Part shown: piece after piece, positions 1,856 through 25,215 of the stretch
Layout of the letters: the number at the start of each line of letters is the position of its first letter
How positions within the stretch are numbered: the first letter of the stretch is position 1
The notes under the pieces: model-generated
Told to the model about the DNA's origin: nothing
The model's input: the letters and a program-made list of their open reading frames with translations, nothing else
Databases searched by the model: none
DNA from: a virus
Direction: 5' to 3' (one strand)
Virus record (IMG/VR): IMGVR_UViG_3300020473_001135
Location: 1-25,579 of that record
Length of the DNA stretch: 25,579 nucleotides
Position numbers and translations under genes: made by a program

Positions 1856-2170
1856 TTATCCTGCAAACACATTACGTGATCCTTGTACCATATGTTTCAT
1901 ATCAAAAGAATCACGAACTCTGCCAACTCCTATTCCGTAAATGAAAACTGTTCGAGAACCTTTATTAAGTTTTGCACTGTGAGGTTTACAACAAGGCCTC
2001 TTGCCACACATTCTTAATATGGTATGTCGACCTGCTCTATCGCCTCTTCTGGCAATTGGCTTACCATTAGCAAACACTCTTCTCTGGCTGGCTATAACCG
2101 GAGCCTTACTGTCACACTTGTGACCTGTTCTTCCTATATCTCTGTGTCTACATATTCCTCGTGCTGGCAT
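1856..2170 (-). CDS. PAAR-motif spike tip protein
   Basis: This 104-residue protein shows the features of PAAR-family tips, the small conical proteins that sharpen the central spike of contractile tails: an opening MPARGICRHRDIGRTGHKC, the internal strand VFANGKPIARRGDRAGRH, several Cys/His residues in the middle (CGKRPCCKPH) that could bind the metal, and the closing repeat QGSRNVFAG. In T4 the equivalent role is played by gp5.4. A consensus late octamer TATAAATA lies five bases before its ATG. The product is expected at the tip of the tail tube spike, contacting the host envelope. The neighbouring 435-residue protein is probably co-transcribed. Confidence 0.85.
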   Translation of the reverse strand: MPARGICRHRDIGRTGHKCDSKAPVIASQRRVFANGKPIARRGDRAGRHTILRMCGKRPCCKPHSAKLNKGSRTVFIYGIGVGRVRDSFDMKHMVQGSRNVFAG

Positions 2171-2175
2171 AACAG

Positions 2176-2183
2176 TATTTATA
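2176..2183 (-). promoter_or_regulatory. T4-type late promoter octamer (PAAR gene)
   Basis: Minus strand TATAAATA, identical to the T4 late consensus. Only 5 bases separate it from the ATG at 2170, so a start site 5-7 bases downstream would fall on the start codon. Confidence 0.75.
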
Positions 2184-2203
2184 GTAGTAGAAAACGGCTG
2201 TTA

Positions 2204-3304
2204 TTATAACTTAAATTTAGAGAATTGACCTTTTTTAACGTCTTGTTTTATACCACCAACAATGTATGATTCTACTTCTGTTTCTTGTGGTGCTACTTGC
2301 ATACCTTTAGATGATAGCCAATGTTGTGTCCATGGTAGTGGATTTTGTGTTGCTGGAATGTCATACAATGGATCAAAGCCTAATGCTCTCAATCTTTTGT
2401 TTGCTATCCATTCTACATATGTTCCTAACAGTCTTTCGTTTAGTCCTATGATAGATCCATCTTTGAACAAGTGTTTTGCCCATGCTTTTTCTTCATCAAC
2501 ACAATCTTTAAACATTTGAATTACCATTTTATCTGTGCCTTTAATTGCTTTGGTCATTTCAGTATCATCACCTTTGTACCAATTTTTAATTACGTGTGTG
2601 GATAAGTTTAAGTGTGTTGCTTCATCTCTAGCAATTAACGAAAGTATTTTAGCAGAACCTTCCATAAGTTTAAGTTCTCCAAATGCAAAAGTACTAGCAA
2701 ACGAAACATAAAAACGTAAACCTTCTAACAAGTTTACAGTCATCATTGCAAGATATAATTGTTTTTTAAGTTCAATCATATCAACTTTCTTTCCTATTGC
2801 ATAGTCTTGAGCCATTTGTCCAAATTTGTTATAGTTGTCTGTAACTGATTTTGCTCTTTTTAATATTTCTTCATCATTTAATATTGTATCAAACACTTCA
2901 CTTGGATTAGAATAAACATTTTTAATAATGTGTGTGTAACTTCTAGAGTGTAGTGCTTCAAAAAAATCCCAAGTAACAATACAACCTTCAAGTTCTGGAT
3001 TAGAAACATAAGGTAAGAACATAAGACTTGGTCCTCTGCCTTGTACAGAATCTAACAGTGTTTGGTATTTTAAGTTTGATGTGAATATATGTTTTTGTTC
3101 TGGTCTAAATGTTTGATAATCACCTCTGTCTTTTTGTAGTGATACTTCTTCTGGTCTCCAAAAGTATCCTAACATAGTTTGATTTAACTTATCAAACTGT
3201 GGATATCTCATATTGTCGTATCTTTGTACTCCTCCATCTTCTCCAAAAAACATTGGTTGTTTTGTGAAGTCAACGACCTTCTGATTAAAAACTGTCTTTG
3301 TCAT
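2204..3304 (-). CDS. nrdB: Ribonucleotide reductase class Ia, beta subunit
   Basis: The 366-residue protein aligns by eye along its length with E. coli NrdB. It houses the diiron-tyrosyl radical cofactor that drives NDP reduction by NrdA. The metal ligands are all visible: Asp85, Glu116, His119, Glu194, Glu228 and His231. The radical tyrosine is Tyr123 in the HSRSYTH motif. The C-terminal tail ending FSKFKL corresponds to the segment that docks on NrdA. It begins 12 bases after the nrdA stop on the same strand, so the two are almost certainly co-transcribed. It serves deoxynucleotide supply for phage replication. No glutaredoxin or thioredoxin gene is seen nearby. Confidence 0.97.
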   Translation of the reverse strand: MTKTVFNQKVVDFTKQPMFFGEDGGVQRYDNMRYPQFDKLNQTMLGYFWRPEEVSLQKDRGDYQTFRPEQKHIFTSNLKYQTLLDSVQGRGPSLMFLPYVSNPELEGCIVTWDFFEALHSRSYTHIIKNVYSNPSEVFDTILNDEEILKRAKSVTDNYNKFGQMAQDYAIGKKVDMIELKKQLYLAMMTVNLLEGLRFYVSFASTFAFGELKLMEGSAKILSLIARDEATHLNLSTHVIKNWYKGDDTEMTKAIKGTDKMVIQMFKDCVDEEKAWAKHLFKDGSIIGLNERLLGTYVEWIANKRLRALGFDPLYDIPATQNPLPWTQHWLSSKGMQVAPQETEVESYIVGGIKQDVKKGQFSKFKL

Positions 3305-3316
3305 AATATAATTTTG

Positions 3317-5746: not shown

Positions 5747-5892
5747 ATTTATCTGTTTTCCGGTTTATAAGTTTTTTGTGCGTATTTTAAAATTTTTATC
5801 ATGGTTCGTAATCATCAAACTCGGTTATCGTTTGACTTTTTTATTATATGCTAATAATATGATAAAAAAAAGTTTTTGTCTACGGATTAATT

Positions 5893-5907: not shown

Positions 5908-5908
5908 T

Positions 5909-7531
5909 TTATACTAGGATTTGAACTTGGTATTCCATCGTTGCGTCTGTGCTTGACGAAGATGTGGTTGTGTATTGTACTCTTATAGTGTCGTTACCAG
6001 CAGTTGAATCACCATCTGAAGTTTTTGCTGTCAGTGTTACACCAGCATCACCATTGGATTCTTCATAATCATCATTGTAAGATGCATATTCACCTGCGGC
6101 ACTTATAGTTAATATTCCTGTTCTATAATTTGTACCTCTGTTTATTTTGTAAGTAATTTTTACACCCTTATCATTTAGTCCAGGAAGGTATATTCCTGTA
6201 TCGGTGGCCGACGATGTGTTGTCTGATAAAGTAATTTGTTTAACTGCTTTTGTATGTAATCCTATTCCTTGTACTTCTGGTGGTGTGTTTGAAGGATCTG
6301 TTGAATCTCCAAAGTTAGTATCTCTTTGTGAAGTTCTTTCAAAAAAGTCTAGTATAGATGTACATTCGTCATTGTCAAATTGTATTACAGGAACTTCATT
6401 TATTGATTGAACACCTTCAAAATTATTTCCAACTGTCTCTGCATACCAGTTACCATATGAAACAATATTTCTTGGACCTACTCCTGAGTCAGCACCTGAT
6501 GCCGGTTTAACATAAATTGCTTGTTGTCCTATATCACTCCAACTTGATCCTGCAAAGTGTACACCTCTAGGACCTTTAGTTAATCCGTTTGTTGATCCGT
6601 CCATGGATTCACCAACCATTGCACCGTAATAAGAAGTTGCAAAATCACAATGAGAAAATCTCATATTTGTTACATCATATGATAGATCAACCAGTCTAGC
6701 AAATTTTGTAAATTGACATTGATCAAAAACTATATTTGAACAAGGTAGAGCAGTTGTTGATCTAACTGTTATACCTTTTGAATTTGATGCATCTGCACCA
6801 CCTGATGCATATGAACCTTGAAACTTACACTTATTAAAATACACATGAGTTGCATTATCAATTGATGCTCCACCATATGCAACTGTGTTTCTAAAAGTCA
6901 TGTTTTCTATTTGAATTTGTGTTGGAGTTGTTGCACTACTTCCACCAATGCTACCATAAGTTTGTCCGTCATCATCTTCAGTAACTATAACTGCATTGTT
7001 ACCTGAGTTTCTTATAATTGTTTTGTCTGGACCTTCACCTACTAAATGTGCGTAAGGTGGTATAGTTAATGCTGTACTAATTCTGTATATGCCTGCAGGA
7101 AAAAATAATATTCTTCTTGCTCTTGTATCATCTTGATCTGTGTCTGAATATAATTCGTCTAATGCTCTTTGTATTGCAGTTGCATCTGCTGTTGAATCAT
7201 CACCTACTGCACCAAAGGCTTTTACTGAAACATAATCATCTAATGTTGCTTGTAAAGTTCTTGAAACATCGCCTGATGCACCTGTTCCTACTGGTGTTGA
7301 ATCTCCCAAGTATCCTTTGTATGTGTATGATAGTGATGTTGTAAAACCTGCTGAGCCAGAAGTCATTATTTCTGTGTTGCCTACTGCTGGAGCACCGTCT
7401 GCCACAGTACCGTTTCCAATATAAAGTCTTTGATCGTCAACTACCCAGCCTAATTCTCCAGCGGCTAATTGTGGCAAATCAGTCTTTTTTCCACGTCTGT
7501 GTTGTATTCTTGATATCTGTACTATCGGCAT
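5909..7531 (-). CDS. Tail fibre: Mtd_N-like domain plus pectate-lyase-type beta-helix
   Basis: The 540-residue protein has a short N-terminal domain (about 1-55: ISRIQHRRGKKTDLP then AAGELGWVVDDQRLYIGNG) like the N-terminus of major tropism determinants and other phage fibres, which attaches to the baseplate. Residues about 100-330 match the pectate_lyase_3 type right-handed beta-helix opening (VKAFGAVGDDSTADATAIQRAL then RRILFFPAGIYRIS) followed by many short beta-rungs. The C-terminal 100 residues are Thr/Ser/Asp rich and may be the receptor-binding or trimerisation end. The enzyme residues of true lyases are not evident, so binding or depolymerising host surface glycan are both possible. 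An AATAAATA octamer precedes the start by 8 bases. Confidence 0.85.
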   Translation of the reverse strand: MPIVQISRIQHRRGKKTDLPQLAAGELGWVVDDQRLYIGNGTVADGAPAVGNTEIMTSGSAGFTTSLSYTYKGYLGDSTPVGTGASGDVSRTLQATLDDYVSVKAFGAVGDDSTADATAIQRALDELYSDTDQDDTRARRILFFPAGIYRISTALTIPPYAHLVGEGPDKTIIRNSGNNAVIVTEDDDGQTYGSIGGSSATTPTQIQIENMTFRNTVAYGGASIDNATHVYFNKCKFQGSYASGGADASNSKGITVRSTTALPCSNIVFDQCQFTKFARLVDLSYDVTNMRFSHCDFATSYYGAMVGESMDGSTNGLTKGPRGVHFAGSSWSDIGQQAIYVKPASGADSGVGPRNIVSYGNWYAETVGNNFEGVQSINEVPVIQFDNDECTSILDFFERTSQRDTNFGDSTDPSNTPPEVQGIGLHTKAVKQITLSDNTSSATDTGIYLPGLNDKGVKITYKINRGTNYRTGILTISAAGEYASYNDDYEESNGDAGVTLTAKTSDGDSTAGNDTIRVQYTTTSSSSTDATMEYQVQILV

Positions 7532-7539: not shown

Positions 7540-7547
7540 TATTTATT
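7540..7547 (-). promoter_or_regulatory. Late promoter octamer (tail fibre)
   Basis: Minus strand AATAAATA, followed by ACTG and 8 bases from the ATG at 7531. It overlaps the stop codon of the upstream nuclease gene. Confidence 0.6.
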
Positions 7548-8250
7548 AAAGGATAGACTTGTAGTATTGTTCTAATTTAGCATACCATTGTCCAACCCAA
7601 TGGTCGTAATTGTCTATTTCAAACGTTTGAAATTCGTTATTTTGTGTGCATATAAAAATCCTACCTGCACTTATTTGCGTGTCATAAAGTTTATTATGTG
7701 CTTCAGAATATGCAACTAATTGAAGATAATAGTCTTCAATCCACTCTTTCTTTTTTAATTTACGTGCTTGTTTAAAATCCATTATTGCTGGAGCACCTTT
7801 GTACACACCAACTAAATCTGTTGTACCTGCATACAGTTCAGGATAGTGTAATGAAACTTCAGAACCCCATACTTCACTTACATCTTTTAATCCGTTATCA
7901 ATAATAACATTAGCCATTGCGTGTGCTTTTTGATGTATAAGATTAGAACCAGGTTTTCTTTCAATACCTTTTACGTGTTTTTCTAATGAGCCGTGCATAA
8001 CTGTTCCTATGTTTGCAGACTCAGTTGCAATTTGTTGTGCTTTTTGTTCGCCTATTCTTTTCTTCCAGGCGTTTAAATGTGTCATATCTTTTGTAGCAGA
8101 TAGCACTGTGGTTACACTGGGCACTTGTCTACCATCTGGGGTTTCATAATGCCTTTTTCGATTTTTGGTAACTTTTTCTAGTTCCTCGTAAGGATATCTC
8201 TGTATGTAGGCAATGCCTTTACTTTTTAACACATCTTCGGTAATTTTCAT
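7546..8250 (-). CDS. PD-(D/E)XK exonuclease (MGME1/Cas4/RecB-like)
   Basis: This 234-residue protein has the motif order of the RecB/Cas4/MGME1 nuclease family: GTVMHGSLE with His86 and Glu90, Asp145 in AGTTDLVGVY, Asp158-Phe-Lys160 as the PD-(D/E)XK core, and Gln177 to Tyr181 (LQLVAY) as the QxxxY motif. The family cuts single-stranded DNA or DNA ends in recombination and replication, and similar proteins are common in marine T4-like phages. A perfect sigma70 promoter sits directly upstream, suggesting early expression, unlike its late-type neighbours. The ATG at 8250 overlaps the sequence TATAAATG; no other in-frame ATG is nearby. Confidence 0.88.
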   Translation of the reverse strand: MKITEDVLKSKGIAYIQRYPYEELEKVTKNRKRHYETPDGRQVPSVTTVLSATKDMTHLNAWKKRIGEQKAQQIATESANIGTVMHGSLEKHVKGIERKPGSNLIHQKAHAMANVIIDNGLKDVSEVWGSEVSLHYPELYAGTTDLVGVYKGAPAIMDFKQARKLKKKEWIEDYYLQLVAYSEAHNKLYDTQISAGRIFICTQNNEFQTFEIDNYDHWVGQWYAKLEQYYKSIL

Positions 8251-8256
8251 TTATAT

Positions 8257-8285
8257 ATTATAGTTTATGATATACTATCTGTCAA
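8257..8285 (-). promoter_or_regulatory. Perfect sigma70 consensus promoter
   Basis: Minus strand TTGACA (8280-8285), 17-base spacer, TATAAT (8257-8262). Only 6 bases lie between the -10 box and the nuclease ATG at 8250, so the transcript would be leaderless or nearly so. The -35 lies within the 3' end of the upstream radical SAM gene. Confidence 0.8.
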
Positions 8286-10955: not shown

Positions 10956-11789
10956 TTACTTCCCCGCTAGTTTGCCATAGATTCTATTTGATTGTTCAAA
11001 TACTTCTTTGGATTCTCTTTGCTCTCTGCCTTCAGGTTCTGTGCCACCTGCTTCGGCATCAGAGGCTCCAAACTCATCTGTCTCTGCATCTGTTTCTGAG
11101 TCAAGTGAGTCTAGATCTGTATCCATATTCATCGTGTCATCGGCGCCCATAGGTTCTGAAGCCATTTCCTCTCCGGTCAATATTCTTACACCGTTATCTA
11201 ACTCTTGTCGAGTTGTTGTGAGTGTTGCCTCCGCCTGTTCAATCGCTGGTTGGATTTTTTGCATGAAAGCATCTGCCTTGTCTGCTCCCATTTCGTCTCT
11301 GATTCTGTCTGCTAGTTCTAGCATACCTTCTGTCTTCATTGTTGCTAGATCTTCCAAGTACCCTGTAACTTTATCCATCATGTCCTTGGCCGCTAATATT
11401 AATTCTGATTGTTCTTCAACACCTTCTTTTGTCATTAGTTTGCTAACTACTTTCTTTTCAACTGGATTCAGGGCCATTCCTTTATCTAATTTGTCTTTAG
11501 CACTAATAGCCGATGTTGCCGCCATTTTTTCTTTGTCGCTGTATTCTTTAATTGCTTGATTAACCACGTCTAACATCATTTGACTTTTTTGATAACTGTC
11601 ATCTTTTAGTTCTCTGCCAAAATGTGTGTTTTGTGTTATGTCGTGGATTTTAGTTCTAATTTTGTTTGCATAGTCTTCCAGTTCTTCCTTTGTAAACTTG
11701 CTTAATTCCATAGTTTGATTAAATCTAGTTTCAAACTCTTTTAGTAAAGATTCAGTTGTTATAGGTTTTGTTAGTTCTGTGCTTTGCAT
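10956..11789 (-). CDS. Putative virion or scaffold-like helical protein
   Basis: This 277-residue protein is mostly helical up to about residue 205, then has a strongly acidic, low-complexity Asp/Glu/Ser/Thr segment (about 208-255) and a short helical end (EVFEQSNRIYGKLAGK). It has no membrane segment and few hydrophobic clusters. The layout of coiled helices plus an acidic linker is seen in prohead core or scaffold proteins, but I cannot confirm that family. An AATAAATA octamer five bases before the ATG marks it as a probable late gene. The plus-strand 183-residue frame at 11008-11559 is a Ser-rich shadow of it. Confidence 0.72.
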   Translation of the reverse strand: MQSTELTKPITTESLLKEFETRFNQTMELSKFTKEELEDYANKIRTKIHDITQNTHFGRELKDDSYQKSQMMLDVVNQAIKEYSDKEKMAATSAISAKDKLDKGMALNPVEKKVVSKLMTKEGVEEQSELILAAKDMMDKVTGYLEDLATMKTEGMLELADRIRDEMGADKADAFMQKIQPAIEQAEATLTTTRQELDNGVRILTGEEMASEPMGADDTMNMDTDLDSLDSETDAETDEFGASDAEAGGTEPEGREQRESKEVFEQSNRIYGKLAGK

Positions 11790-11794: not shown

Positions 11795-11802
11795 TATTTA
11801 TT
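11795..11802 (-). promoter_or_regulatory. Late promoter octamer
   Basis: Minus strand AATAAATA with exactly 5 bases before the ATG at 11789. Confidence 0.6.
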
Positions 11803-14256: not shown

Positions 14257-14264
14257 TATTTACT
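14257..14264 (-). promoter_or_regulatory. Late promoter octamer with leader and SD
   Basis: Minus strand AGTAAATA, 17 bases upstream of the ATG at 14239 with AAGGAG in between. It sits right after the U-run of the terminator at 14266-14303. Confidence 0.6.
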
Positions 14265-14875: not shown

Positions 14876-14894
14876 AATTTATTTCTCCTTATCC

Positions 14895-15326
14895 TTATGC
14901 TACAACTGCCGCAGTTAGAACCGCTAATTGCGTGTGAGTTGCAGTAGTAGAACCATTTTGACCTGAAACTGCTCTAAGAGCCGTTTGCAAAGTTGCTAAT
15001 GATCCACCGCTTGTTGTTTCTGTTAAAGTAAACGCACCTGTACCTGTAGTTGCTTGAGAACCAACAAAGTTGTCAGTTCCTTCAGTCATATAAGTTTTTT
15101 GCGTGTTACTGTCTGCTAAAGGGCCTGCCGCTACAATGTTACCGTATATTCTAACACAGTTTTCACCTGTATTTTGGTCAGCACCTTTTGCCGTTTGAGC
15201 GTTCATGGCATCGACGTAGTCGATTGTAAAGAATTCTAATTCTTTACCCATGCCGTCATATTTTGATGTTGCATGAAAAGTTGTATTACCTTCTCCACCT
15301 GCAACACTTGATCCTGTATAAGCCAT
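14895..15326 (-). CDS. Small virion-type protein, 143 residues
   Basis: A Thr/Ala/Gly-rich protein with the shared family motif LEFFTIDYVD near residue 35 and a conserved later segment, TYMTEGTDNF then LATLQTALRAVSG. Both features recur in the 139-residue gene just upstream, so the two are tandem paralogues. The ribosome site is strong (GAGGAG). The composition resembles surface-exposed head or tail decoration proteins. The middle gene of a three-gene operon, it is 25 bases from the upstream gene's stop and 19 from the next ATG. Confidence 0.75.
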   Translation of the reverse strand: MAYTGSSVAGGEGNTTFHATSKYDGMGKELEFFTIDYVDAMNAQTAKGADQNTGENCVRIYGNIVAAGPLADSNTQKTYMTEGTDNFVGSQATTGTGAFTLTETTSGGSLATLQTALRAVSGQNGSTTATHTQLAVLTAAVVA

Positions 15327-15351
15327 TCTATTTCTCCTCTAGTTTATACTA

Positions 15352-15771
15352 TTATGCTACCTGTGTATCAGACATATCTCTATCAGCCGCTGTTGCAGAT
15401 GATATTGTTGCTGTTACTTTGTCAGGTGTTAGGGCGTCCAATGCTCTTACTGCCGCTTGGATTGCCGCTACTGTTGTTGTTGAACTTATAGTGTCTAAAG
15501 CGTCTGCTCTAACCATGTAAGTTTGCTCTGTGTCTGAGTTACCTAATGCACCCATACCTAGGATATTAACTCCTTGGTTCTGGATTGCTTCAATAGATAA
15601 TTTAAGAGCCGCAGTGTTCGCCGATGCCAAAGAGTGTGTTACCTCTCCTGACACGTCACTGATATAGTCAACGGTGATGAAGTCAACTCTACATCCTTCG
15701 CCTTCATGTGCAAGGTTTGGTGTTTTAAAGTTTCCTGGACCGCCCGCTGGTAGTGTGTTGTCGTATGCCAT
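15352..15771 (-). CDS. Small virion-type protein, 139 residues
   Basis: The first gene of the operon. It carries VDFITVDYIS near residue 30, then TYMVRADALDTI and TVAAIQAAVRALDAL, matching the downstream paralogue. The composition is Ala/Thr/Ser/Asp rich. The ribosome site AGGAGG is close to perfect and the leader contains a 9-bp hairpin, both signs of high expression. It is probably a virion surface component; the exact location is unknown. Confidence 0.77.
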   Translation of the reverse strand: MAYDNTLPAGGPGNFKTPNLAHEGEGCRVDFITVDYISDVSGEVTHSLASANTAALKLSIEAIQNQGVNILGMGALGNSDTEQTYMVRADALDTISSTTTVAAIQAAVRALDALTPDKVTATISSATAADRDMSDTQVA

Positions 15772-15805
15772 TTTTAATCCTCCTATTTCTCTGATTTTAA
15801 TGACT

Positions 15806-15826
15806 ATGTCTCCGCTCCGGAGACAT
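15806..15826 (-). promoter_or_regulatory. 5'-leader stem-loop, probable mRNA stabiliser
   Basis: A perfect 9-base inverted repeat (ATGTCTCCG / CGGAGACAT) around a 3-base loop. It begins only a couple of bases after the start site predicted from the CATAAATA box and lies 35 bases upstream of the ATG. A 5'-terminal stem of this kind is known to protect some mRNAs from RNase E. It lacks a U-run, so it is not a terminator. Confidence 0.6.
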
Positions 15827-15833
15827 TTGTATC

Positions 15834-15841
15834 TATTTATG
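15834..15841 (-). promoter_or_regulatory. Late promoter octamer (virion-protein operon)
   Basis: Minus strand CATAAATA, 62 bases before the ATG at 15771, giving a leader of about 56 bases with a hairpin and a strong SD. Confidence 0.55.
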
Positions 15842-15869
15842 GTAAAGATTGGTAAATTAAGCGATAATA

Positions 15870-16244
15870 TTACGAATTATCCAATTTTAGTTCGGTTTCT
15901 GCCACTACAGACAGCGAAACTGACTTATTATTAACTCCAACACTATCACCCATGTCTCTTATTGCTGTTTGCAGTGTGGCCGCTGTCCAGCCAGGTCTTT
16001 CCATTGTGATGTCTACTCTGCCTGATGCGGCATTGTCAATACGTTGATATAATATTGTACCTCTTTGCAAAATTGTTCTAATTAAATTATGCATTGTTTC
16101 ATCATAATCTAATTCTGTTCTAATATCTAACACTGAACTGTCAGATTGAATTAAAGTTATATGAAAGAACTTTACTTCAGCACCTGCAAAGTTGTCAGTG
16201 CTACCGATAGCGTCAGTTACTTTAAAATTATTTGGTGTTGCCAT
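15870..16244 (-). CDS. Small virion-type protein, 124 residues
   Basis: It carries the family pattern: VKFFHITLIQ near residue 25, an internal helix (MHNLIRTILQRGTILYQRI) and WTAATLQTAIRDMG, close to the LQTALRA segment of the operon downstream. It therefore appears to be a fourth member of the same small family. It has its own octamer (AATAAATA, 7 bases before ATG) and no good SD, unlike the other three, which suggests separate and perhaps lower expression. A virion role is inferred from the family composition. Confidence 0.72.
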   Translation of the reverse strand: MATPNNFKVTDAIGSTDNFAGAEVKFFHITLIQSDSSVLDIRTELDYDETMHNLIRTILQRGTILYQRIDNAASGRVDITMERPGWTAATLQTAIRDMGDSVGVNNKSVSLSVVAETELKLDNS

Positions 16245-16251: not shown

Positions 16252-16259
16252 TATTTATT
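16252..16259 (-). promoter_or_regulatory. Late promoter octamer
   Basis: Minus strand AATAAATA, 7 bases before the ATG at 16244 and immediately after the stop codon of the Cys-rich mini-gene. Confidence 0.6.
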
Positions 16260-16394
16260 CTACCCGTCTACGTGAAATCTCTGCAAACATTTTGGACAAT
16301 CGCAAGTATCACAGTTTTCACAGTTCTTGCAACTGCCATCGCAGTGCGGTCTGCACGAACATCTATAACATTTACTTTTTTCTTGCTCTGTCAT
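16260..16394 (-). CDS. Cysteine-rich 44-residue mini-protein (ten Cys)
   Basis: An ATG at 16394 opens a 44-codon frame ending TAG at 16260-16262. Cysteines are at 9, 12, 14, 18, 22, 25, 28, 31, 33 and 36, giving repeated CxxC and CxC spacings; histidines are at 17 and 41. The first eight residues are charged (MTEQEKSK). It fills the gap between the 282-residue gene, which it overlaps by 23 bases, and the octamer of the next gene, so coding use of this interval is likely. The pattern suggests a metal-binding (zinc or metallothionein-like) or iron-sulfur peptide. No named family is recognised and no clear SD is seen. Confidence 0.68.
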   Translation of the reverse strand: MTEQEKSKCYRCSCRPHCDGSCKNCENCDTCDCPKCLQRFHVDG

Positions 16395-17217
16395 GTATCG
16401 ATTGAAGTAGTTTTACAAAAGTATATCCACCTGTTGCTATGTCGTCTATCATTTTTACAATAGGTGCATAAGCAGACATGATAGGTGCTGGAACTGCCTT
16501 GCCTTGTTTAATCATATCTGCGGCTATTTTGGCACGTCTTACATTAGATGCTCCAACTAATATTCTATATGCAGACATCTCATCTGGAGTTAATTTAACA
16601 CCTGGTTGAGTTCTCTCTGCATCAATTACGTCGTCTAGTTCTAATTTTTGTTTGTCAGCAAACTCTTGTGCTTTTCTTTGTAAGTCTGTTCCAGGCAGTT
16701 TTGCTTTTAATGCCTGTAACAATCTTGTTGTTGTTACTTGTTTTCTTTTTGAATCTAGTTTTGCGTAGTCACTTATTGCTCTTCTCAAGTTACTGTAATC
16801 CATATTACTAATTCCTAATGCTCGTTCTAGTTTGGTTAGGAATGAATAACTGTTTTTAAAATCTCTTAGGTATCTTCTCATGGCAAGTTCAGGTACAGAT
16901 CTTCTTTGTCTCAATGCCATTGCTTGATTTTTATTTGCTAACTTATTGGTAATCGCTGGGTCTCCTACCACTACTGCCATCATGTTATGTAAATCATTAG
17001 AAGTTGATCGCACTCTATCAAATGATCCATATGCCAGTGTTTGATTTGCATAAGATTTAACAAATCCTGCTGTCTGACTAAAGTTTCTTAACAAAGTTAG
17101 TGTTAAAAATGACAAGTATATACGTTCGGTAATTTCCTGAAACGTATATCTTTGTAGGTCGCTTTGTCGTCTTACAACTCTTGCTTCAGATACATACTGT
17201 AAAAAGGGTGTTAACAT
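16372..17217 (-). CDS. Putative internal head protein with capsid-targeting-like N-terminus
   Basis: I place the start at Met3 (ATG 17217), giving 281 residues, because a TATAAATA box overlaps the first ATG (17223) and sits exactly 5 bases before this one. The N-terminus, MLTPFLQYVSEA, resembles the capsid-targeting peptides of T4 internal proteins (MKTYQEFIAEA-type), where the prohead protease cuts after the Glu. The rest is basic and helical, with many Arg and Gln residues and a hydrophobic C-terminal helix (ATGGYTFVKLLQSIHDR). No enzyme motif is visible. An ejected or internal head role is inferred from the N-terminus only. Confidence 0.7.
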   Translation of the reverse strand: MLTPFLQYVSEARVVRRQSDLQRYTFQEITERIYLSFLTLTLLRNFSQTAGFVKSYANQTLAYGSFDRVRSTSNDLHNMMAVVVGDPAITNKLANKNQAMALRQRRSVPELAMRRYLRDFKNSYSFLTKLERALGISNMDYSNLRRAISDYAKLDSKRKQVTTTRLLQALKAKLPGTDLQRKAQEFADKQKLELDDVIDAERTQPGVKLTPDEMSAYRILVGASNVRRAKIAADMIKQGKAVPAPIMSAYAPIVKMIDDIATGGYTFVKLLQSIHDRARKK

Positions 17218-17222
17218 ACACA

Positions 17223-17230
17223 TATTTATA
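17223..17230 (-). promoter_or_regulatory. T4-type late promoter octamer
   Basis: Minus strand TATAAATA, exact T4 consensus, 5 bases before the ATG at 17217. It lies in the short gap shared with the divergent glycosyltransferase-like gene. Confidence 0.72.
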
Positions 17231-17236
17231 GAACCT

Positions 17237-18271
17237 ATGCAACGTAATTTTATATTAACCGATGTAATGAAAACTGGTTATCATCAGGATTTTGAAGAAT
17301 TTATAGATATGCACACTTTAAAAGGTCAGTCTTTTGAATGTACTGGAGAATACTATACTTTACATAATTTTAATATAGACTCATATGATAGAAGATTTGC
17401 TATAATTGATACTAGAATAGCAAATATAAGAATTAAAGATAATAAGGAATTCCATGAGGAATTGCAAAGACGTTGTGATTTATTACACAGTCAAGGCTTT
17501 GTTTTTATTAAAGCGAACCCATGGGAAAGCATAGACAACTTAGAAAAAACTCCATCATATCCAGAAATAGATATAGAACATATACTATGGACAGGTGATG
17601 TAAGTTGGTTTTGGTTTTATATGTATAGAAAACATCTGAATAACAATTACAACTTTAATCATAAAAACAAAAAATATGATTTTTTATATTTGAATAAACA
17701 ATCTAGGCCACATAGATTTGCTTTATACGAAAAAGTACAAGATATAATGTCAAACAGTTTGCATACATTTTGGGATAAAGAAATAAAGTTACCTGCTGAA
17801 TACGAGTTGCCATGGGCACAAGACTATCCTAAAATGGGTAAAGACCAAGATATGTTTGAGAAGCCTTATAATGATACAAAGTATAATTTAATATCTGAAA
17901 CAAACGATAATAACACTGATGTTTTTATGACAGAAAAAATATGGAAACCTATAATTGCTCAACAAATATTTGTAGTGCATGGAAACTATCTGTATTTGCA
18001 AAAGTTAAGAGAAATGGGTTTTAAAACTTTTGGTTATTATTTTGATGAGAGTTATGATTTAGAACAAGATGGCAATAAGAGAGTAGATGCAATTTGTAAA
18101 CTTTGTAAAGATCTACTTTCTAAAGATTGGCAAGATTTGTATTTGCAAACCATTGCACTTAGACAACACAATTACGATACATTTTTTAATAAAGAAAAAT
18201 TACAGGAACAGATTAATAAAACTTTAATTAGTTTTTTGGAATTTGCTGACAGCAGTCAAGTTTCTTCTTGA
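17237..18271 (+). CDS. Glycosyltransferase-like protein
   Basis: This 344-residue protein has segments seen in phage-encoded GT-B-like or GT10/exostosin-like transferases: FLYLNKQSRPHRFAL (about 149-163) and LISET...FMTEKIWKPIIAQQIFVVHG (about 218-249), where the TEKxWxP/A element and the following strand form the nucleotide-sugar site in GT10-type enzymes. It would transfer a sugar to an unknown acceptor such as DNA, virion protein or host glycan. It is a single plus-strand gene between minus-strand blocks and shares a 13-19-base gap with a divergent gene. Its last 48 bases overlap the convergent neighbour. This isolation suggests an inserted accessory gene. Confidence 0.65.
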   Translation: MQRNFILTDVMKTGYHQDFEEFIDMHTLKGQSFECTGEYYTLHNFNIDSYDRRFAIIDTRIANIRIKDNKEFHEELQRRCDLLHSQGFVFIKANPWESIDNLEKTPSYPEIDIEHILWTGDVSWFWFYMYRKHLNNNYNFNHKNKKYDFLYLNKQSRPHRFALYEKVQDIMSNSLHTFWDKEIKLPAEYELPWAQDYPKMGKDQDMFEKPYNDTKYNLISETNDNNTDVFMTEKIWKPIIAQQIFVVHGNYLYLQKLREMGFKTFGYYFDESYDLEQDGNKRVDAICKLCKDLLSKDWQDLYLQTIALRQHNYDTFFNKEKLQEQINKTLISFLEFADSSQVSS

Positions 18272-19446: not shown

Positions 19447-19746
19447 TTAATCCTCTTTGTATTCGCCGTCTTTGATTTTAAGTACGTTGTCTTTGATGTC
19501 TTTGTTTTCTTTAATTCTATTAACACCTTTAGAAAACTTAGATGCGTCCATATTTTTTATTGCAGAATGAAACTTTTTTTCTAATTTAAATGCTGTATCT
19601 TGGTCAAAGTTTTCTCTGATATAACCTATTAGTCTAATTGCTGACTCTAGTATGTGAGATGCACGGCTTTCAACCACGTTTTCCTTGTCTTTAGTAAAGG
19701 AAATGTTGCTTAATTCTTCCAGGATACTTTTTGTTTGTTTCTGCAT
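19447..19746 (-). CDS. Unknown helical protein, 99 residues
   Basis: A charged, mainly helical protein: MQKQTKSILEELSNISF, a central segment (ASHILESAIRLIGYIRENF) and a Lys-rich end (KDNVLKIKDGEYKED). No recognised family or membrane segment. It is the first gene of a two-gene unit with the ligase-like protein (2-base gap) and has both a TTGATT-N16-TATAAT candidate and an AGTAAATA octamer 6 bases before its ATG. A partner role for the downstream protein is suggested only by this linkage. Confidence 0.7.
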   Translation of the reverse strand: MQKQTKSILEELSNISFTKDKENVVESRASHILESAIRLIGYIRENFDQDTAFKLEKKFHSAIKNMDASKFSKGVNRIKENKDIKDNVLKIKDGEYKED

Positions 19747-19752
19747 TTTCAG

Positions 19753-19792
19753 TATTTACTCGATATTATAACATATTTGTAATATAAATCAA
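19753..19792 (-). promoter_or_regulatory. Octamer plus sigma70-like promoter
   Basis: Minus strand TTGATT (19787-19792), 16-base spacer, TATAAT (19765-19770), then AGTAAATA (19753-19760), which ends 6 bases before the ATG at 19746. Confidence 0.5.
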
Positions 19793-20670: not shown

Positions 20671-20675
20671 TCTAA

Positions 20676-20704
20676 ATAATATACTAGACAAATATTTCTG
20701 TCAA
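20676..20704 (-). promoter_or_regulatory. Sigma70 promoter for the small basic gene
   Basis: Minus strand TTGACA (20699-20704), 17-base spacer, TATTAT (20676-20681). The -10 ends 5 bases before the ATG at 20670. It overlaps the divergent promoter at 20685-20713. Confidence 0.72.
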
Positions 20705-20721
20705 CCGTATAATAGTAAATA
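20685..20721 (+). promoter_or_regulatory. Sigma70 promoter and late octamer for DUF1178 gene
   Basis: Plus strand TAGACA (20685-20690), 17-base spacer, TATAAT (20708-20713), directly followed by AGTAAATA (20714-20721), which ends 5 bases before the ATG at 20727. This could allow both early and late expression. Confidence 0.65.
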
Positions 20722-20726
20722 ATATT

Positions 20727-21176
20727 ATGATCAAGTACCAACTAATATGTGAATGTGATGCAAGTTTTGAAGGTTGGTTTCCAACAAGTGAAGACTATGA
20801 AAATCAATTAGCAAAAGGACAATTAGTATGTCCTATGTGCGACAGCACCAAAGTGCGTAAAGATATTCAAATGCCAAACATTGGTAAAAAATCTAATCAA
20901 AAATCTCCTAGAGAACGTGGCAGGGAAAATGTTTTAAACATGGCAGGAGATCAAATGGTAATGGGAGGCAGAGCAAGATCTTTATTAAAGTCATTAGAGA
21001 AACACGTCAAAGAAAACTTTGAAAATGTTGGTAACGAGTTTCCTAAAGAGGCACGTAAAGCACACAAAGGTGAAAGAAATCAAGAGTTCTATGGCACTGC
21101 TTCAAAGAAAGAAGCAAAGAAATTACTCGACGAAGGTATAGATCTATTCCACGTACCAAGCATCAAAGACAATTAG
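20727..21176 (+). CDS. DUF1178 family protein
   Basis: This 149-residue protein matches the layout of DUF1178, a small family I know mainly from proteobacterial chromosomes. The N-terminus MIKYQLICECDASFEGWF has Cys8 and Cys10, paired with Cys35 and Cys38 (CPMC), a probable zinc site. A basic linker follows, then the typical C-terminal domain: EFPKEARKAHKGE, YGTASKKEAKKLLDEGI and a closing proline segment. Its molecular role is unknown even in bacteria. Presence in a phage suggests capture from an alphaproteobacterial host. It has its own promoters and stands alone on the plus strand. Confidence 0.87.
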   Translation: MIKYQLICECDASFEGWFPTSEDYENQLAKGQLVCPMCDSTKVRKDIQMPNIGKKSNQKSPRERGRENVLNMAGDQMVMGGRARSLLKSLEKHVKENFENVGNEFPKEARKAHKGERNQEFYGTASKKEAKKLLDEGIDLFHVPSIKDN

Positions 21177-21200
21177 TTTACCTTTACCAGCATCATACGG

Positions 21201-21229
21201 TTGACTTTCAGTACAACCTGTATTATAAT
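21201..21229 (+). promoter_or_regulatory. Strong sigma70 promoter
   Basis: Plus strand TTGACT (21201-21206), 17-base spacer, TATAAT (21224-21229): 11 of 12 consensus positions. The first ATG downstream (21236) is 6 bases after the -10. Confidence 0.8.
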
Positions 21230-21235
21230 AGTGGC

Positions 21236-21675: not shown

Positions 21676-21691
21676 TTAAATTAGATCTAAG

Positions 21692-21720
21692 GGGCGGTAG
21701 GCAACTATCGCCCTTTTTTT
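21692..21720 (+). terminator. Intrinsic terminator with GNRA tetraloop
   Basis: A nine-base stem (GGGCGGTAG with CTATCGCCC, one G-U pair), a GCAA tetraloop and seven T residues, 17 bases after the stop at 21675. Confidence 0.92.
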
Positions 21721-21726
21721 GTGGCC

Positions 21727-21734
21727 GTTAAATA
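21727..21734 (+). promoter_or_regulatory. Late-type octamer before radical SAM gene
   Basis: Plus strand GTTAAATA, 5 bases before the ATG at 21740 and immediately after the terminator. This spacing supports 21740 as the start rather than the TTG at 21719, which lies inside the terminator U-run. Confidence 0.5.
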
Positions 21735-21739
21735 GTAGT

Positions 21740-22618
21740 ATGAAAACTATTCATGTAGAGGCCAGCACCTATTGTAATGCAAGATGTCCATTGTGTCCTA
21801 GAAGTCTCTATGGATACAAAGTAGAAGGAGTTTATCCTGAATTACATTTAAGCATAGACAAATTCCAAGAGTGTTTATTACAATTTCCAAACAGAACTTT
21901 TGTATATTTCAATGGCAACTTAGGTGACCCTATGATGAATCCTAATATACTTGAACTAGCAAATATGACCGACTGTCGTACTTCAATAACAACAAACGGT
22001 AGTATAGGAACACAGAACACTTGGCAATCTTTAGCCAAAAACAATGTAGAAGTAGTTTTTAGTATAGACGGACTTGAAGATACAAACCATTTATATAGAC
22101 AAGATGTTGAATGGAATAAACTTATGGATAGAGTAAAATGGTTTATTGATGCTGGAGGTAAAGCAACATGGAAGTTTATAACATTTAAACATAATGTCCA
22201 TCAGCAAGAACAAGCAAAACAATTATCAAAACAATTAGGATTCAAAGAGTTTCTTGTAGAAGATCATAGCAGGAATTATGGACCAGCATTGAGTAAAGAA
22301 GGCAAGATAACACACTGGATATTACCTGCAGATGGTTCTAGACAACCAACTCCATATGATGTGCCTGCAGGGATTGATAGGTATAAAAAGACTCATGAAA
22401 ACTTTTTTCCTGAAGAGAAAGTGTATGAAATAGACTGTGAACACGAAACACGATCAACAGTTTATATTGATGCTCGAGGAAGAATAGGTCCGTGTTGTTA
22501 TCAAGGATTTGATTTGCCTTCTTTGCCTTTTGTTGAAATAAAAGATTTCCCTCAAATAAAAGAGTCGTGGCAAACAAATAAATGTAATTTTGTTTGTGCT
22601 ATGTCCTGTGGTAAATGA
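21740..22618 (+). CDS. Radical SAM/SPASM protein, paralogue of 9538-10581
   Basis: This 292-residue protein has the cluster motif Cys12-x3-Cys16-x2-Cys19 (YCNARCPLC), the strand FNGNLGDPMMNP and SITTNGS, then FSIDGLEDTNHLYRQ and WNKLMDRV, nearly matching the minus-strand paralogue. The C-terminal cysteines (DCEHE, GPCCYQG, CNFVCAMSC) are SPASM-like ligands for auxiliary [4Fe-4S] clusters. Substrate unknown; the family often modifies peptides. It has its own late-type octamer. Its TGA is directly adjacent to the TAA of the convergent gene, with no gap. Confidence 0.9.
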   Translation: MKTIHVEASTYCNARCPLCPRSLYGYKVEGVYPELHLSIDKFQECLLQFPNRTFVYFNGNLGDPMMNPNILELANMTDCRTSITTNGSIGTQNTWQSLAKNNVEVVFSIDGLEDTNHLYRQDVEWNKLMDRVKWFIDAGGKATWKFITFKHNVHQQEQAKQLSKQLGFKEFLVEDHSRNYGPALSKEGKITHWILPADGSRQPTPYDVPAGIDRYKKTHENFFPEEKVYEIDCEHETRSTVYIDARGRIGPCCYQGFDLPSLPFVEIKDFPQIKESWQTNKCNFVCAMSCGK

Positions 22619-23041
22619 TTAAAATAAATGATCTGAGTCGTCTTCAATGAACCATTGTTTTGCACCAGTTCCACCTTCGTCTGCTTGAACCCAGTCTGTA
22701 GTAAGAGCGGAAGGTGCCCATCCATCTCCTGAAACTAATGCATCTTTGGCTTCTGTAAATTTTGTTGCCCAAGATTTTGTAGCAGGATTTGTAACAGTTC
22801 CAAATGCAACTGTCCATTTTAGTCCATTGCCGTCGCCTGTAATAGCAAATTGTACCTGCGTTCCATTGTCGTTGATACAAGCCTGTGCTTCAGCAGTTAG
22901 GAAAAAGTTTTTGGCTGTTGTTAGGTTTCCACTAAAACTTTGCGAAACAACGTCCCAAGATGAATCAGCCTGATGCTGTTTTTGGACCATTATCTTCGTC
23001 TGTTTGTTGTGTACTCCGTATGTATTATCCGAGTTTGCCAT
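22619..23041 (-). CDS. Small virion-type protein, 140 residues
   Basis: A Thr/Asp/Trp/Gly-rich protein beginning MANSDNTYGVHNKQTKIMVQ, with beta-type segments (VQFAITGDGNGLKWTVAFG) and a polar acidic end. No signal peptide or membrane segment. The composition resembles the small decoration-type proteins at 14333-16244, but no shared motif is evident. It has an octamer, a 22-base leader and an AGGAGA ribosome site, the same pattern as the well-expressed virion-like genes. A virion component is the best guess. Confidence 0.7.
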   Translation of the reverse strand: MANSDNTYGVHNKQTKIMVQKQHQADSSWDVVSQSFSGNLTTAKNFFLTAEAQACINDNGTQVQFAITGDGNGLKWTVAFGTVTNPATKSWATKFTEAKDALVSGDGWAPSALTTDWVQADEGGTGAKQWFIEDDSDHLF

Positions 23042-23062
23042 TGTTGTTTCTCCTATATGTAC

Positions 23063-24199
23063 TTATTTACCATAATATACTACATTATCTCCCTTAGGAT
23101 ATGTCCTCCATGGGTCAAATATTATAGTGTTATTATCTGCTGTTATTTGGTCTGTTTCATGTACTCGTACGATTACTTGTACAGGGTTATCAAAGCCATT
23201 TACAAGGTGTCCACCGTGTTTTTTAACATAATATTGCACGAGCAATGAGTATGATCCATCTATTAATTGTGTGCCTGGTTTGTATGTGTCTGAAGTAAAG
23301 TATATGTTGTTGCCGTGTTTTAATATTTCAAGTGCCATATTTTCTGCTTGTTTTTCACGTGCAGTCATTATGCTTTCAAACAAATCATATCCTAATCCTA
23401 TATCTTTTGCTAACCAACGTAATGCAATATTATCTCTAGGATGACAAGCACCACCGTCTCCCATACCTGCTTTCATATATGCAGGACTGTTTATTCTTTG
23501 TGTGCTTTTTGCCAGTGCTTTGGTCACAACATCAACATCCATGTTGCCCAGTTTTTGTGCAACTTCTTGCACCATATTAACTAATGAGATTTTAGTACTA
23601 ATAAAAGTATTGTAAAATATTTTAATTGCTTCTGCTTCTTCCCAAGTGCCAAATTCTATTCTAGGATTGTTATCACATATCCTTCCGTAGAAATGCAAGA
23701 GATGTTTTGCTCTATTGGCTGTAACTAGATTGCCTTTCATTGTTCCTATAATAATCATTTCAGGATTAATCATATCCCAACCTACACTACCCATAGCAAT
23801 TAGATAAGGATTATAAATCAGTCTTGTATTTGTGATCAGTGGAGCAAGTTCTCTTCTTGTTGTTCCTGGCAGTACAGTTGATATTAATGCAAGTGTTTGT
23901 TCATTCTTAACATACTTGTTGCATTCTTTTAAAACTTCTTTTACTGAATCATAGTTAAAGTCTTTAGGTGGCAGATGACTTGTAGGGTTTCTTCCATCGT
24001 ATCCTTCTTCGTGTGGAGTAGGAGTTGCAACAAATACAATATCTGATTGTTCTATAACTTCTTGTATTGAATCTTTTATATCTATCTTTGTGCTGGTCTT
24101 AGGTAGTATGTCATAACCAAGTACATTAAATCCTTTGTCGGAGACTGCTTCTGCACATGGCATACCCAGTTTGCCTAATCCTATAAAGCCTATTTGCAT
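23063..24199 (-). CDS. UDP-glucose/GDP-mannose-type nucleotide-sugar dehydrogenase
   Basis: This 378-residue protein has a Rossmann GxGxxG at Gly7-Leu-Gly9-Lys-Leu-Gly12, the FVATPTP strand, Lys203 and Asn197 in the central helix region, and the catalytic loop GDGGACHPRD with Cys252. The family oxidises a nucleotide sugar in two steps to the uronic acid with NAD. It is shorter than usual (about 430), and the C-terminal sugar-binding domain is compact. The substrate (UDP-glucose, GDP-mannose or similar) cannot be read from the sequence. It may feed the glycosyltransferase-like gene at 17237 or alter host surface sugars. Two 11-base repeats lie upstream of its start. Confidence 0.88.
   Translation of the reverse strand: MQIGFIGLGKLGMPCAEAVSDKGFNVLGYDILPKTSTKIDIKDSIQEVIEQSDIVFVATPTPHEEGYDGRNPTSHLPPKDFNYDSVKEVLKECNKYVKNEQTLALISTVLPGTTRRELAPLITNTRLIYNPYLIAMGSVGWDMINPEMIIIGTMKGNLVTANRAKHLLHFYGRICDNNPRIEFGTWEEAEAIKIFYNTFISTKISLVNMVQEVAQKLGNMDVDVVTKALAKSTQRINSPAYMKAGMGDGGACHPRDNIALRWLAKDIGLGYDLFESIMTAREKQAENMALEILKHGNNIYFTSDTYKPGTQLIDGSYSLLVQYYVKKHGGHLVNGFDNPVQVIVRVHETDQITADNNTIIFDPWRTYPKGDNVVYYGK
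23064..23071 (-). promoter_or_regulatory. Late-type octamer with leader and SD
   Basis: Minus strand GGTAAATA, 22 bases before the ATG at 23041 with AGGAGA between. It overlaps the end of the sugar dehydrogenase gene. Confidence 0.45.
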
Positions 24200-24210
24200 A
24201 TGCTTAATTA

Positions 24211-24232
24211 TGGCTCGCTATTGGCTCGCTAT
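24211..24232. repeat. Tandem 11-bp repeat upstream of sugar dehydrogenase
   Basis: TGGCTCGCTAT occurs twice in perfect tandem. On the minus strand it occupies the place of a -35 element just upstream of CATAAT (24207-24212), which is 7 bases before the dehydrogenase ATG. It could be an activator or repressor box. Confidence 0.6.
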
Positions 24233-24252
24233 TAGGTCTTTGGTTTTATTGG

Positions 24253-24489
24253 TTATGCTGAATAATCTGGTAGAGGACCGCCGTACTTTTTACCTTTGAC
24301 TCTTTTTCCTGCAACCTTTTGTGTCTTGCCACGTATCTTTTCACTACGGTTACCTGTACGTTTTCTTTTGCCCTGTGACTTACAAGAAGATATCCACGAT
24401 GCTGGTAATGATGATGCTGGTTTAGAACACACACCTGCTGGTGCTGGACCTATGTTTTCATCAGTGTTATAAATCTCGTATATCTTCAT
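24253..24489 (-). CDS. Small basic protein with MKIYEI N-terminus
   Basis: I start at Met10 (ATG 24489, 78 residues) because GTTAAATA lies 8 bases upstream; the in-frame ATG at 24516 would precede that box. It opens MKIYEIYNTDENIGP, has a Pro/Ala/Ser middle with two Cys, then a strongly basic stretch (CKSQGKRKRTGNRSEKIRGK) and ends GGPLPDYSA. The basic body suggests binding to DNA or RNA. The opening resembles other MK/R-x-x-E/F starts here, including the divergent basic gene at 24661, so both may be packaged head proteins; this is inference. No family recognised. Confidence 0.7.
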   Translation of the reverse strand: MKIYEIYNTDENIGPAPAGVCSKPASSLPASWISSCKSQGKRKRTGNRSEKIRGKTQKVAGKRVKGKKYGGPLPDYSA

Positions 24490-24497
24490 TGTGCTTG

Positions 24498-24535
24498 TAT
24501 TTAACCTATATAACATACTGAGTTGATCTTGTTAA
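24498..24535 (-). promoter_or_regulatory. Sigma70-like promoter plus octamer
   Basis: Minus strand TTAACA (24530-24535), 17-base spacer, TATATA (24507-24512), then GTTAAATA (24498-24505), 8 bases before the ATG at 24489. Confidence 0.5.
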
Positions 24536-24565
24536 AATGTAGCACCCTGTAATATATTGTTACTT

Positions 24566-24637
24566 TAAGGTCTCTTAAGGTAGTTTAAGGTAAGGTTTAG
24601 TTAAGGTCTTGTAAGGTCTTGTAAGGTCTTGTAAGGT
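24566..24637. repeat. Phased TAAGGT direct-repeat array
   Basis: Eight copies of TAAGGT start at 24566, 24576, 24586, 24591, 24602, 24612, 24622 and 24632. Most are spaced 10 bases apart, and the last four form a TAAGGTCTTG tandem. The array fills the divergent intergenic region 24517-24660. The 10-bp phase places sites on one face of the helix, as for cooperative protein binding or DNA bending. It carries no interrupted spacers like CRISPR. Confidence 0.85.
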
Positions 24638-24647
24638 CTAATCCTGC

Positions 24648-24655
24648 AATAAATA
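24648..24655 (+). promoter_or_regulatory. Late promoter octamer (basic protein gene)
   Basis: Plus strand AATAAATA followed by CTGAT and the ATG at 24661 (5-base gap). The CTG after the box recurs in other promoters here. Confidence 0.62.
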
Positions 24656-24660
24656 CTGAT

Positions 24661-25215
24661 ATGAAGATCAAAGAATTCATAGTACCAAAAAAATCTGAAG
24701 ATACTACATCTAGTGGCACAATATATAGTATCGAGTCGGAACCGGAGACACAAGATATAGTGCCACAAGATCATGTGCCACAAAGAAAAAAGGTACAAGA
24801 GGTTGACATCATTCCGGAGATGATTGACGGTAAAGTTTTAGAGCAGGCCGACCACTCTGCAATCACAGAAGGTGTGAGCCAAATTTTTAGAAGAAAAAAA
24901 GGTGGAACTCCAACCAAAGGATTTAGATGTACGAGCGGTCCAAGGAAAGGCAGAATAGTTGCCAAACCTTCAACCTGTTTTCAAAAATTAGATCCGGCTA
25001 AAGGAGCAAAGATAAGAAAGAAAAGACAGATCAAAGCGAAGTTGGCAGGTAAGAAACTTGCTCGAACAAAAAGAACAGGAGCCGGTGCTCAAAGATTAAA
25101 ATCTATTCAGCCTAAGAAGATGAAAGGTTCACAGCCAAGAATGGGTAAGACTGTTAGATCAGGAAGAAGACCATTAATAAAATCTAAAACTATCAAACCA
25201 AAAAGACGAAAATGA
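24661..25215 (+). CDS. Highly basic protein, possible packaged DNA-binding protein
   Basis: The 184-residue protein has a short start (MKIKEFIVPKK), an acidic to neutral first 75 residues containing a QDxVPQ repeat, and then an extremely Lys/Arg-rich C-terminal 105 residues beginning with GFRCTSGPRKGR and a second Cys in STCF. It looks able to bind nucleic acid over much of its length. The MKIKEF opening is reminiscent of T4 capsid-targeting peptides, so an internal head protein is plausible but unproven. It lies behind an octamer and the phased repeats. Its TGA overlaps the next gene's ATG (ATGA), implying coupled translation. Confidence 0.75.
   Translation: MKIKEFIVPKKSEDTTSSGTIYSIESEPETQDIVPQDHVPQRKKVQEVDIIPEMIDGKVLEQADHSAITEGVSQIFRRKKGGTPTKGFRCTSGPRKGRIVAKPSTCFQKLDPAKGAKIRKKRQIKAKLAGKKLARTKRTGAGAQRLKSIQPKKMKGSQPRMGKTVRSGRRPLIKSKTIKPKRRK
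24717..24785. repeat. 15-nt repeat units inside a coding region
   Basis: CACAAGATATAGTGC (24749-24763) and CACAAGATCATGTGC (24764-24778) are in tandem, followed by CACAAAG, with a variant CACAATATATAGTAT at 24717-24731. In frame they encode the QDIVPQDHVPQ repeat. The same unit recurs beyond the next gene at 25435-25495, in both orientations. Confidence 0.65.

Follow-up and report, generated by a model that had tools for sequence, protein, structure and literature searches.

The 25,579-base stretch analysed here, referred to as the window, corresponds to a complete IMG/VR record. It has a GC content of 34.7% and is 99.996% identical to part of an 84-kb contig (G001). In the window, ten copies of the hexamer TAAATA end 5-8 bases before the ATG of a predicted gene (Table 1), a spacing referred to below as the gap. 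The genes behind these leaderless-type boxes include a PAAR protein, a tail spike and virion structural proteins, and the corresponding sites in three related contigs (G027-G029) front virion structural proteins and an endolysin. Judged by these predicted products (virion and lysis), the genes serve late functions. The window also contains TAAATA boxes followed by a leader, a terminator directly upstream of one of the boxes, and sigma70-type promoters.

Table 1 Promoter-like and terminator features of the window. Gap, bases between the box and the start codon.
Feature	Position	Strand	Gap	Start codon, gene and remarks
TAAATA box	2176..2181	-	5	ATG 2170, PAAR-domain protein (1856-2170); full TATAAATA at 2176-2183
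TAAATA box	7540..7545	-	8	ATG 7531, tail-spike-like protein (5909-7531)
TAAATA box	11795..11800	-	5	ATG 11789, virion structural protein-like gene (10956-11789)
TAAATA box	16252..16257	-	7	ATG 16244 (15870-16244)
TAAATA box	17223..17228	-	5	ATG 17217 (16372-17217); full TATAAATA at 17223-17230
TAAATA box	19753..19758	-	6	ATG 19746, virion structural protein-like (19447-19746)
TAAATA box	20716..20721	+	5	ATG 20727 (20727-21176)
TAAATA box	21729..21734	+	5	ATG 21740, radical SAM protein (21740-22618)
TAAATA box	24498..24503	-	8	ATG 24489 (24253-24489)
TAAATA box	24650..24655	+	5	ATG 24661 (24661-25215)
TAAATA box, leadered	14257..14262	-	17	ATG 14239; right after stem-loop/T-run terminator; SD AAGGAG
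TAAATA box, leadered	15834..15839	-	~62	ATG 15771; leader with hairpin, SD AGGAGG
TAAATA box, leadered	23064..23069	-	22	ATG 23041 (22619-23041); SD AGGAGA
Stem-loop and T-run terminator	21692..21720	+		Terminator half of the cassette, immediately before the 21729 box
Sigma70-type promoter	8257..8285	-	6	ATG 8250, exonuclease-like (7546-8250); TTGACA-17-TATAAT
Sigma70-type promoter	20676..20704	-	5	ATG opening only 45 codons; TTGACA-17-TATTAT
Sigma70-type promoter	21201..21229	+	6	ATG opening only 24 codons; TTGACT-17-TATAAT

A first-pass annotation of the window had listed ten octamers with a TAAATA core ending 5-8 bases before a start codon, seven of them at exactly 5 or 6 bases. Both statements held: all ten boxes were recovered where it had placed them, with a gap of 5 in six cases, 6 in one, 7 in one and 8 in two. 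It had further stated that no Shine-Dalgarno (SD) site occupies the gap, which was confirmed for 10/10 ATGs, and that several boxes share a following CTG, found here as TAAATACTG at three boxes, with the full TATAAATA octamer in only 2/10. Its remark that TAAATA is common in AT-rich DNA failed for the window, where the hexamer is depleted, with 20 copies on both strands vs 44 expected from the dinucleotide content. At half of these copies (10/20), an ORF of ≥50 codons begins with an ATG at gap 5-8, vs 0.34/20 expected (P = 3e-13), the probability that a random window position has such an ATG-ORF at gap 5-8 being 0.017. With A/T-only hexamers as the null, the probability is 0.027 and the window's 10/20 correspond to P = 3e-11. 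Positions and statistics of the boxes are thus direct observations. SD motifs are present at seven window genes without a box and at two genes with a more distant box, hence SD-led translation also operates in this phage.

Several local arrangements accompany the boxes. The box of the tail-spike-like gene adjoins the end of the upstream gene, and a sigma70-like TATAAT at 20708 lies just upstream of the 20716 box. At 17217-17237, two divergent genes have start codons only about 20 bp apart, and the late box of the minus-strand gene sits between them, beside the plus-strand ATG. Four small consecutive minus-strand genes (124-180 aa) occupy 14333-16244; the first (15870-16244) is preceded by a gap-7 TAAATA, and three genes of the run carry strong AGGAG-type SDs (starts MAYTGSS.., MAYDNTL.. 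and MPATSN..). A short tandem repeat, (GTAAGGTCTT)n, is located at about 24605-24640, just upstream of the 24650 late box.

The first-pass annotation had also asked for the TAAATA-to-ATG distance to be compared with controls on more sequence. We applied this test to related contigs totalling about 1.5 Mb, to contigs of up to 357 kb and to named phages; it revealed a very strong gap-5 peak in the window's clade. Two IMG/VR scans with window proteins supplied 110 related loci, to which larger contigs were added (131 contigs or contig pieces); the gap histogram is based on 111 sequences, the window included, with about 1.5 Mb and 750 distinct TAAATA sites. An ATG follows at gap 5 in 214 of the 750 sites, at gap 6 in 82, at gap 7 in 34 and at gap 8 in 42, while counts at the remaining gaps are mostly in the single digits or low tens; minor peaks are seen at 21 and 27. 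Other A4T2 permutations are about 1.5 to 2.7 times more frequent than TAAATA in the clade and produce no comparable peak, their modest peaks being mostly a shifted-frame echo of TAAATA. ORFs of ≥60 codons are opened by 214/220 gap-5 ATGs vs 4/78 at gap 27.

To remove the effect of relatedness, the downstream proteins were clustered into families, 65 in all. A member at gap 5-8 occurs in 40/65 families and one at exactly gap 5 in 29, vs about 3 for other gaps, showing that the geometry is conserved. For the family of the window gene 16372-17217, the gap is 5 in all 64 distinct members, and the start codon is therefore fixed at 17217, the correction that the first-pass annotation had derived from the box spacing. 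The family of the tail-spike-like gene displays gaps of 7-8 only, and gaps of 6-8 make up a third of sites. Another in-frame start is available upstream at 79/217 gap-5 sites. In some cases a co-directional stop codon immediately precedes the box, so that the gene behind it could also be read from the upstream transcript and the box is not necessarily the sole source of its mRNA.

The boxes are frequently coupled to terminators, an adjacency that is directly observed. Among the clade's distinct GCCCTTTTT terminator tails, 62/81 have a TAAATA 6-10 nt further downstream, the distance being 7-8 nt in 55 cases. An ATG then follows at gap 5 in 40 cases and mostly at gap 12-24 in the rest, several of which have an AAAGGAG leader, including clear cases at gap 17-20. 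Both forms of this cassette are present in the window, the leaderless form at 21692-21740 (+) and the form with an SD leader at the 14262 box (-). A terminator that ends about 20 nt before the ATG limits any leader independently of the box and leaves no room for one. The fixed spacing to the terminator would moreover be typical for a promoter rather than for a translation signal. The boxes at 14262 and 23069 (minus strand) precede leaders with strong SDs; hence, not every box is leaderless. After the 15839 box and before the SD-led start at 15771, a perfect hairpin (TGTCTCCGGAGCGGAGACA) is found at 15805-15839 (-); in the predicted leader it could conceivably contribute to 5'-end protection or translation control.

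Start codons and their surroundings differ between box-led and SD-led genes. SD sites were detected at 1/217 of the gap-5 sites, 1/68 at gap 6 and 1/71 at gaps 7-8, vs 29/46 at gaps 25-40, and the start codons at gap 5 are ATG in 223 cases, GTG in 3 and TTG in 0. This near-exclusive use of ATG without an SD is as leaderless initiation requires. Two hallmarks of a leaderless mRNA, an AUG start without SD and a promoter -10 element at start-site distance, are thus present, while a 5' end at the start codon is so far a prediction. As internal calibration we used TAAATA sites with an ATG 15-40 nt away, which are free of the start-codon constraint. At these long-leader sites a pyrimidine occupies box+5 and A/G box+6, with the pyrimidine-purine (YR) step in 21/35 families vs 23% expected (P = 3e-6). 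The same step is observed at box+5/+6 of the gap-8 sites, three bases before the ATG (89% Y, 87% R). Since this initiator step is fixed to the box in both classes, the start site appears to be set by the box as well, and at gap 5 it would fall on the A of the ATG. In agreement, a pyrimidine precedes the ATG at 88% of gap-5 sites vs 34% of SD-led starts, and an A does so at only 2% vs 58%. The absence of SDs and the initiator signature are as such shown; the start site itself is inferred.

Sigma70-type promoters display a parallel arrangement. Three of them had been described as sharing the geometry, with gaps of 6, 5 and 6; they exist, with the -10 boxes at 8262 (-), 20681 (-) and 21224 (+), but only that at 8262 (-) opens a clear gene, a 234-aa phage exonuclease (7546-8250). 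When the relatives were scanned for TTGACA-16..18-TATAAT-like promoters with two mismatches or fewer, peaks were obtained at gaps 5/6/7 with 12/19/16 families, vs about 4 per other gap. Gap 6 is the textbook distance for a box at -12..-7. The mode of 6, one base more than for the late box, is as expected if both promoter types start on the ATG.

The virion-type proteins of the window's clade match the jumbo phages Atu_ph07 (490 kb), Phosso (469 kb) and PA5oct, and, from the overlap of its contigs with a 137-kb contig, its genome should exceed 200 kb. When the structural and replication proteins of the Pelagibacter phage HTVC008M were compared with the 131 clade loci, which are fragments, no match was obtained. 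On this basis we tentatively assign the phage to a marine jumbo-type lineage rather than to the T4/cyanophage (Kyanoviridae) core, which is marked by the structural proteins gp17, gp18, gp20 and gp23, with the reservation that the contigs are fragmentary. A placement with T4-like cyanophages, which match nrdB and a 406-aa protein, was rejected on the same two observations. The single-cell phage AG-345-F15, although the best nucleotide match, was likewise discarded as a near relative, as it behaves like a cyanophage with leaders. Genes of the clade encode DnaK, ClpX, SufBD, tripartite transporters, DNA ligase, ThyX and many radical SAM proteins, and contigs G001-G009 and G027-G029 carry many host-type genes, including Hsp20, SufB/D, tripartite tricarboxylate transporters and CsgG/CsgF-like curli genes. 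At 191-553 (+) the window encodes a homolog of ribosomal protein bL12, the best bacterial match of which is 53% to an alphaproteobacterial MAG. A host assignment through this protein was not informative.

A late sigma factor of the gp55 type was identified in two large, more distant relatives, G031 and G032 (357 and 307 kb), both of which encode a gp55-like protein (phrog_12791, E about 1e-78) and have a single protein (51-52% identity) as their link to the clade. The family is also represented in HTVC008M and Atu_ph07. The clade's own gp55 was not found in 26 clade contigs, nor on the overlapping 137-kb contig, all fragments, and gp33/gp45 of HTVC008M gave no tblastn match in the fragmentary clade contigs. 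The T4 late promoter proposed in the first-pass annotation hence holds as a kind of element, on the basis of the gp55-like sigma in the two relatives.

The T4 late promoter (TATAAATA) spans -13 to -6 (PMC1524935) and is served by sigma gp55 with gp33 and gp45; at a gap of 5, +1 therefore coincides with the A of the ATG. The elements share the TAAATA core, the lack of an apparent -35 element, the purine start expected at box+6 and the use before virion and lysis genes. The window's clade has a T4-type 8-mer with a conserved core, which is invariant by the selection of sites, enriched at starts and depleted elsewhere. However, positions -13/-12 differ, with T rather than A at -12 in 57% of the clade's sites, SDs are absent, and T4 leaves leaders (3/136 TAAATA at gap 5-8, 29 at 15-35). 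In the Rak2-like jumbo phages (CBB, GAP32) an ATAAATA motif before structural genes and a gp55-like sigma without gp33/gp45 have been reported (PMC5259590), similar to the late motif and to the sigma of the window phage's large relatives, but CBB lacks gap-5 enrichment (4 sites vs 10 control) and Atu_ph07 exhibits little (15 vs 9).

The enrichment, taken as the ratio of TAAATA sites at gap 5-8 to the number that permuted hexamers would predict, is 12x in G001, 14x in G002, 9x in G027, 13x in G028 and 9x in G029. It amounts to 7x in G031, 2x in G032, 4x in HTVC008M, 3x in Mosig, 3x in P-HM2 (3 sites) and 2x in Melnitz, and is none to 1.6x in T4, Syn9, AG-345-F15, Atu_ph07 (40 kb) and CBB (50 kb). 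In G031/G032 the gap-5 peaks of 19 and 11 sites stand beside 54 and 55 leadered sites; G031 (L246-L263) in addition contains nine TAAATA with an ATG at gap 4, a shift absent from the window's clade. The Pelagibacter phages HTVC008M and Mosig EXVC030M share the gap-5 peak (12 and 5 sites) on annotated gene starts, including those of head completion, DNA end protector, baseplate and tail completion proteins. They differ in belonging to another family (Kyanoviridae) and in using leaderless and leadered late promoters about equally often. Most HTVC008M gap-5 matches, when all ORF lengths are counted (11/14 by list comparison), are CDS starts set by its own annotators, and a separate box precedes each of its gp2- and gp4-type genes, which diverge with 26 bp between them. 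Examples of its gap-5 ATGs are at 18943 (+), 18916 (-), 19456 (+), 31132 (+) and 75830 (+) of KC465899. Late promoters of SAR11 myophages had been sought in an earlier study without success (PMC7029224). The nearest dataset would be that of the Syn9 transcriptome paper (2016); Syn9 has no gap-5 sites in the present scan. In leaderless bacterial genes the -10 box precedes the start by about 10-12 bp (Zheng et al. 2011, PMC3160421). The inference rule is the same as here, a leaderless mRNA being deduced from a -10 element that precedes the start codon by the start-site distance, although those are cellular sigma70 promoters and not targets of a phage late sigma.

We propose that TAAATA corresponds to positions -11 to -6 of a late promoter of the T4 type (gp55 class), from which transcription would start at a fixed distance, on the sixth base after the box. 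In the window's clade this base would usually be the A of the start codon (gap 5) or lie 1-3 nt before the ATG (gap 6-8), and the first genes of most late units would be expressed from mRNAs that are leaderless or have a 1-3 nt leader, translated by the leaderless route (5'-terminal AUG, no SD). The same promoter can be joined to an SD leader of 15-30 nt, as in a minority of genes, and many units carry a composite cassette of the upstream unit's terminator, 7-8 nt, the box, 5 nt and the ATG, with sigma70-type promoters arranged in parallel at their own distance (gap 6). A T4-type late promoter starting on, or 0-3 nt before, the A of the ATG is clearly the most likely interpretation, supported independently by the long-leader initiator at box+5/+6, the terminator cassette and the sigma70 peak at gap 6. 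Use of the box by gp55-RNAP, the exact start site and leaderless translation are nevertheless inferred from sequence alone. The leaderless mRNAs predicted in the first-pass annotation are consequently supported but remain a prediction, as no 5' ends have been mapped for any of these phages.

That an AT-rich hexamer merely happens to fall at this distance in start regions that are themselves AT-rich can be all but dismissed. Nothing beyond the AT-richness of the contig speaks for it, and it was rejected on the window statistics (P = 3e-13) and on the recurrence of the peak in 29 gene families without such a peak for permuted hexamers. Alternatively, TAAATA may be no promoter but a translation signal in the RNA, an A/U-rich ribosome-binding element that replaces the SD. 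The fixed distance to the AUG and the missing SD would fit, as would the few boxes at the end of a co-directional upstream gene. However, we regard this as very unlikely, because the box also occurs 15-40 nt before SD-led starts with the initiator signature at box+6, keeps a constant 7-8 nt from terminators irrespective of its distance to the ATG, has an analogue in the sigma70 -10 boxes with their own peak, and is the known late promoter core in T4-related phages.

It is also conceivable that the promoters are real but that transcription starts 1-4 nt further upstream or is scattered, with very short leaders of 1-5 nt, so that the mRNAs would be functionally but not strictly leaderless. The third of sites at gaps 6-8 would agree with this, as would the 1-2 nt by which T4-type and sigma70 start sites are known to vary. 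We consider it unlikely, since the mode is sharply 5, and A is avoided (2%) and pyrimidine favoured before the ATG, as for +1 at the A. Harder to set aside is a habit imposed by the host, in which phages of streamlined marine bacteria with many leaderless genes adopt compact host-like starts and nothing is specific to the promoter. The geometry is common to two unrelated phage lineages, the marine jumbo clade and the SAR11 phages HTVC008M and Mosig, and TATAAT-N6-ATG exceeds the control in many alphaproteobacterial genomes (142 of that class examined, as background only). On the other hand, the host of the window's clade is unknown, and SD-led genes with strong AGGAG are present in the same contig, so that the balance tips slightly against this view, which concerns the cause and is compatible with the late-promoter explanation.

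Taking the late-promoter explanation further, a bolder reading is that a marine jumbo-type lineage, and convergently some SAR11 phages, express most late and many early units as strictly leaderless mRNAs via a recurrent terminator-promoter-ATG cassette in which transcription start equals translation start; we lean narrowly towards it. If so, late translation would be shifted to the leaderless route, which may be linked to phage ribosomal proteins (bL12 in the window, bS21 in SAR11 phages); for bL12, a link to unusual translation is possible yet speculative.

In conclusion, tailed phages are generally considered to make leaderless mRNAs only occasionally, with lambda cI as the textbook case, and the literature searched, mostly without subscription papers, yielded no description of late transcription without leaders for T4-related or marine (jumbo) phages. 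The sequence evidence presented here predicts that one group of ocean phages expresses its late virion and lysis genes mainly from such mRNAs, unlike T4 and most of its relatives. If this is true, gene finders that expect an SD would misplace starts in these phages, and the late regulon of SAR11 phages, for which the earlier prediction failed, would be readable directly from the position of the box. The phages would also depend on recognition of the 5'-AUG by host ribosomes, which raises the question of whether phage-encoded ribosomal proteins favour leaderless translation.
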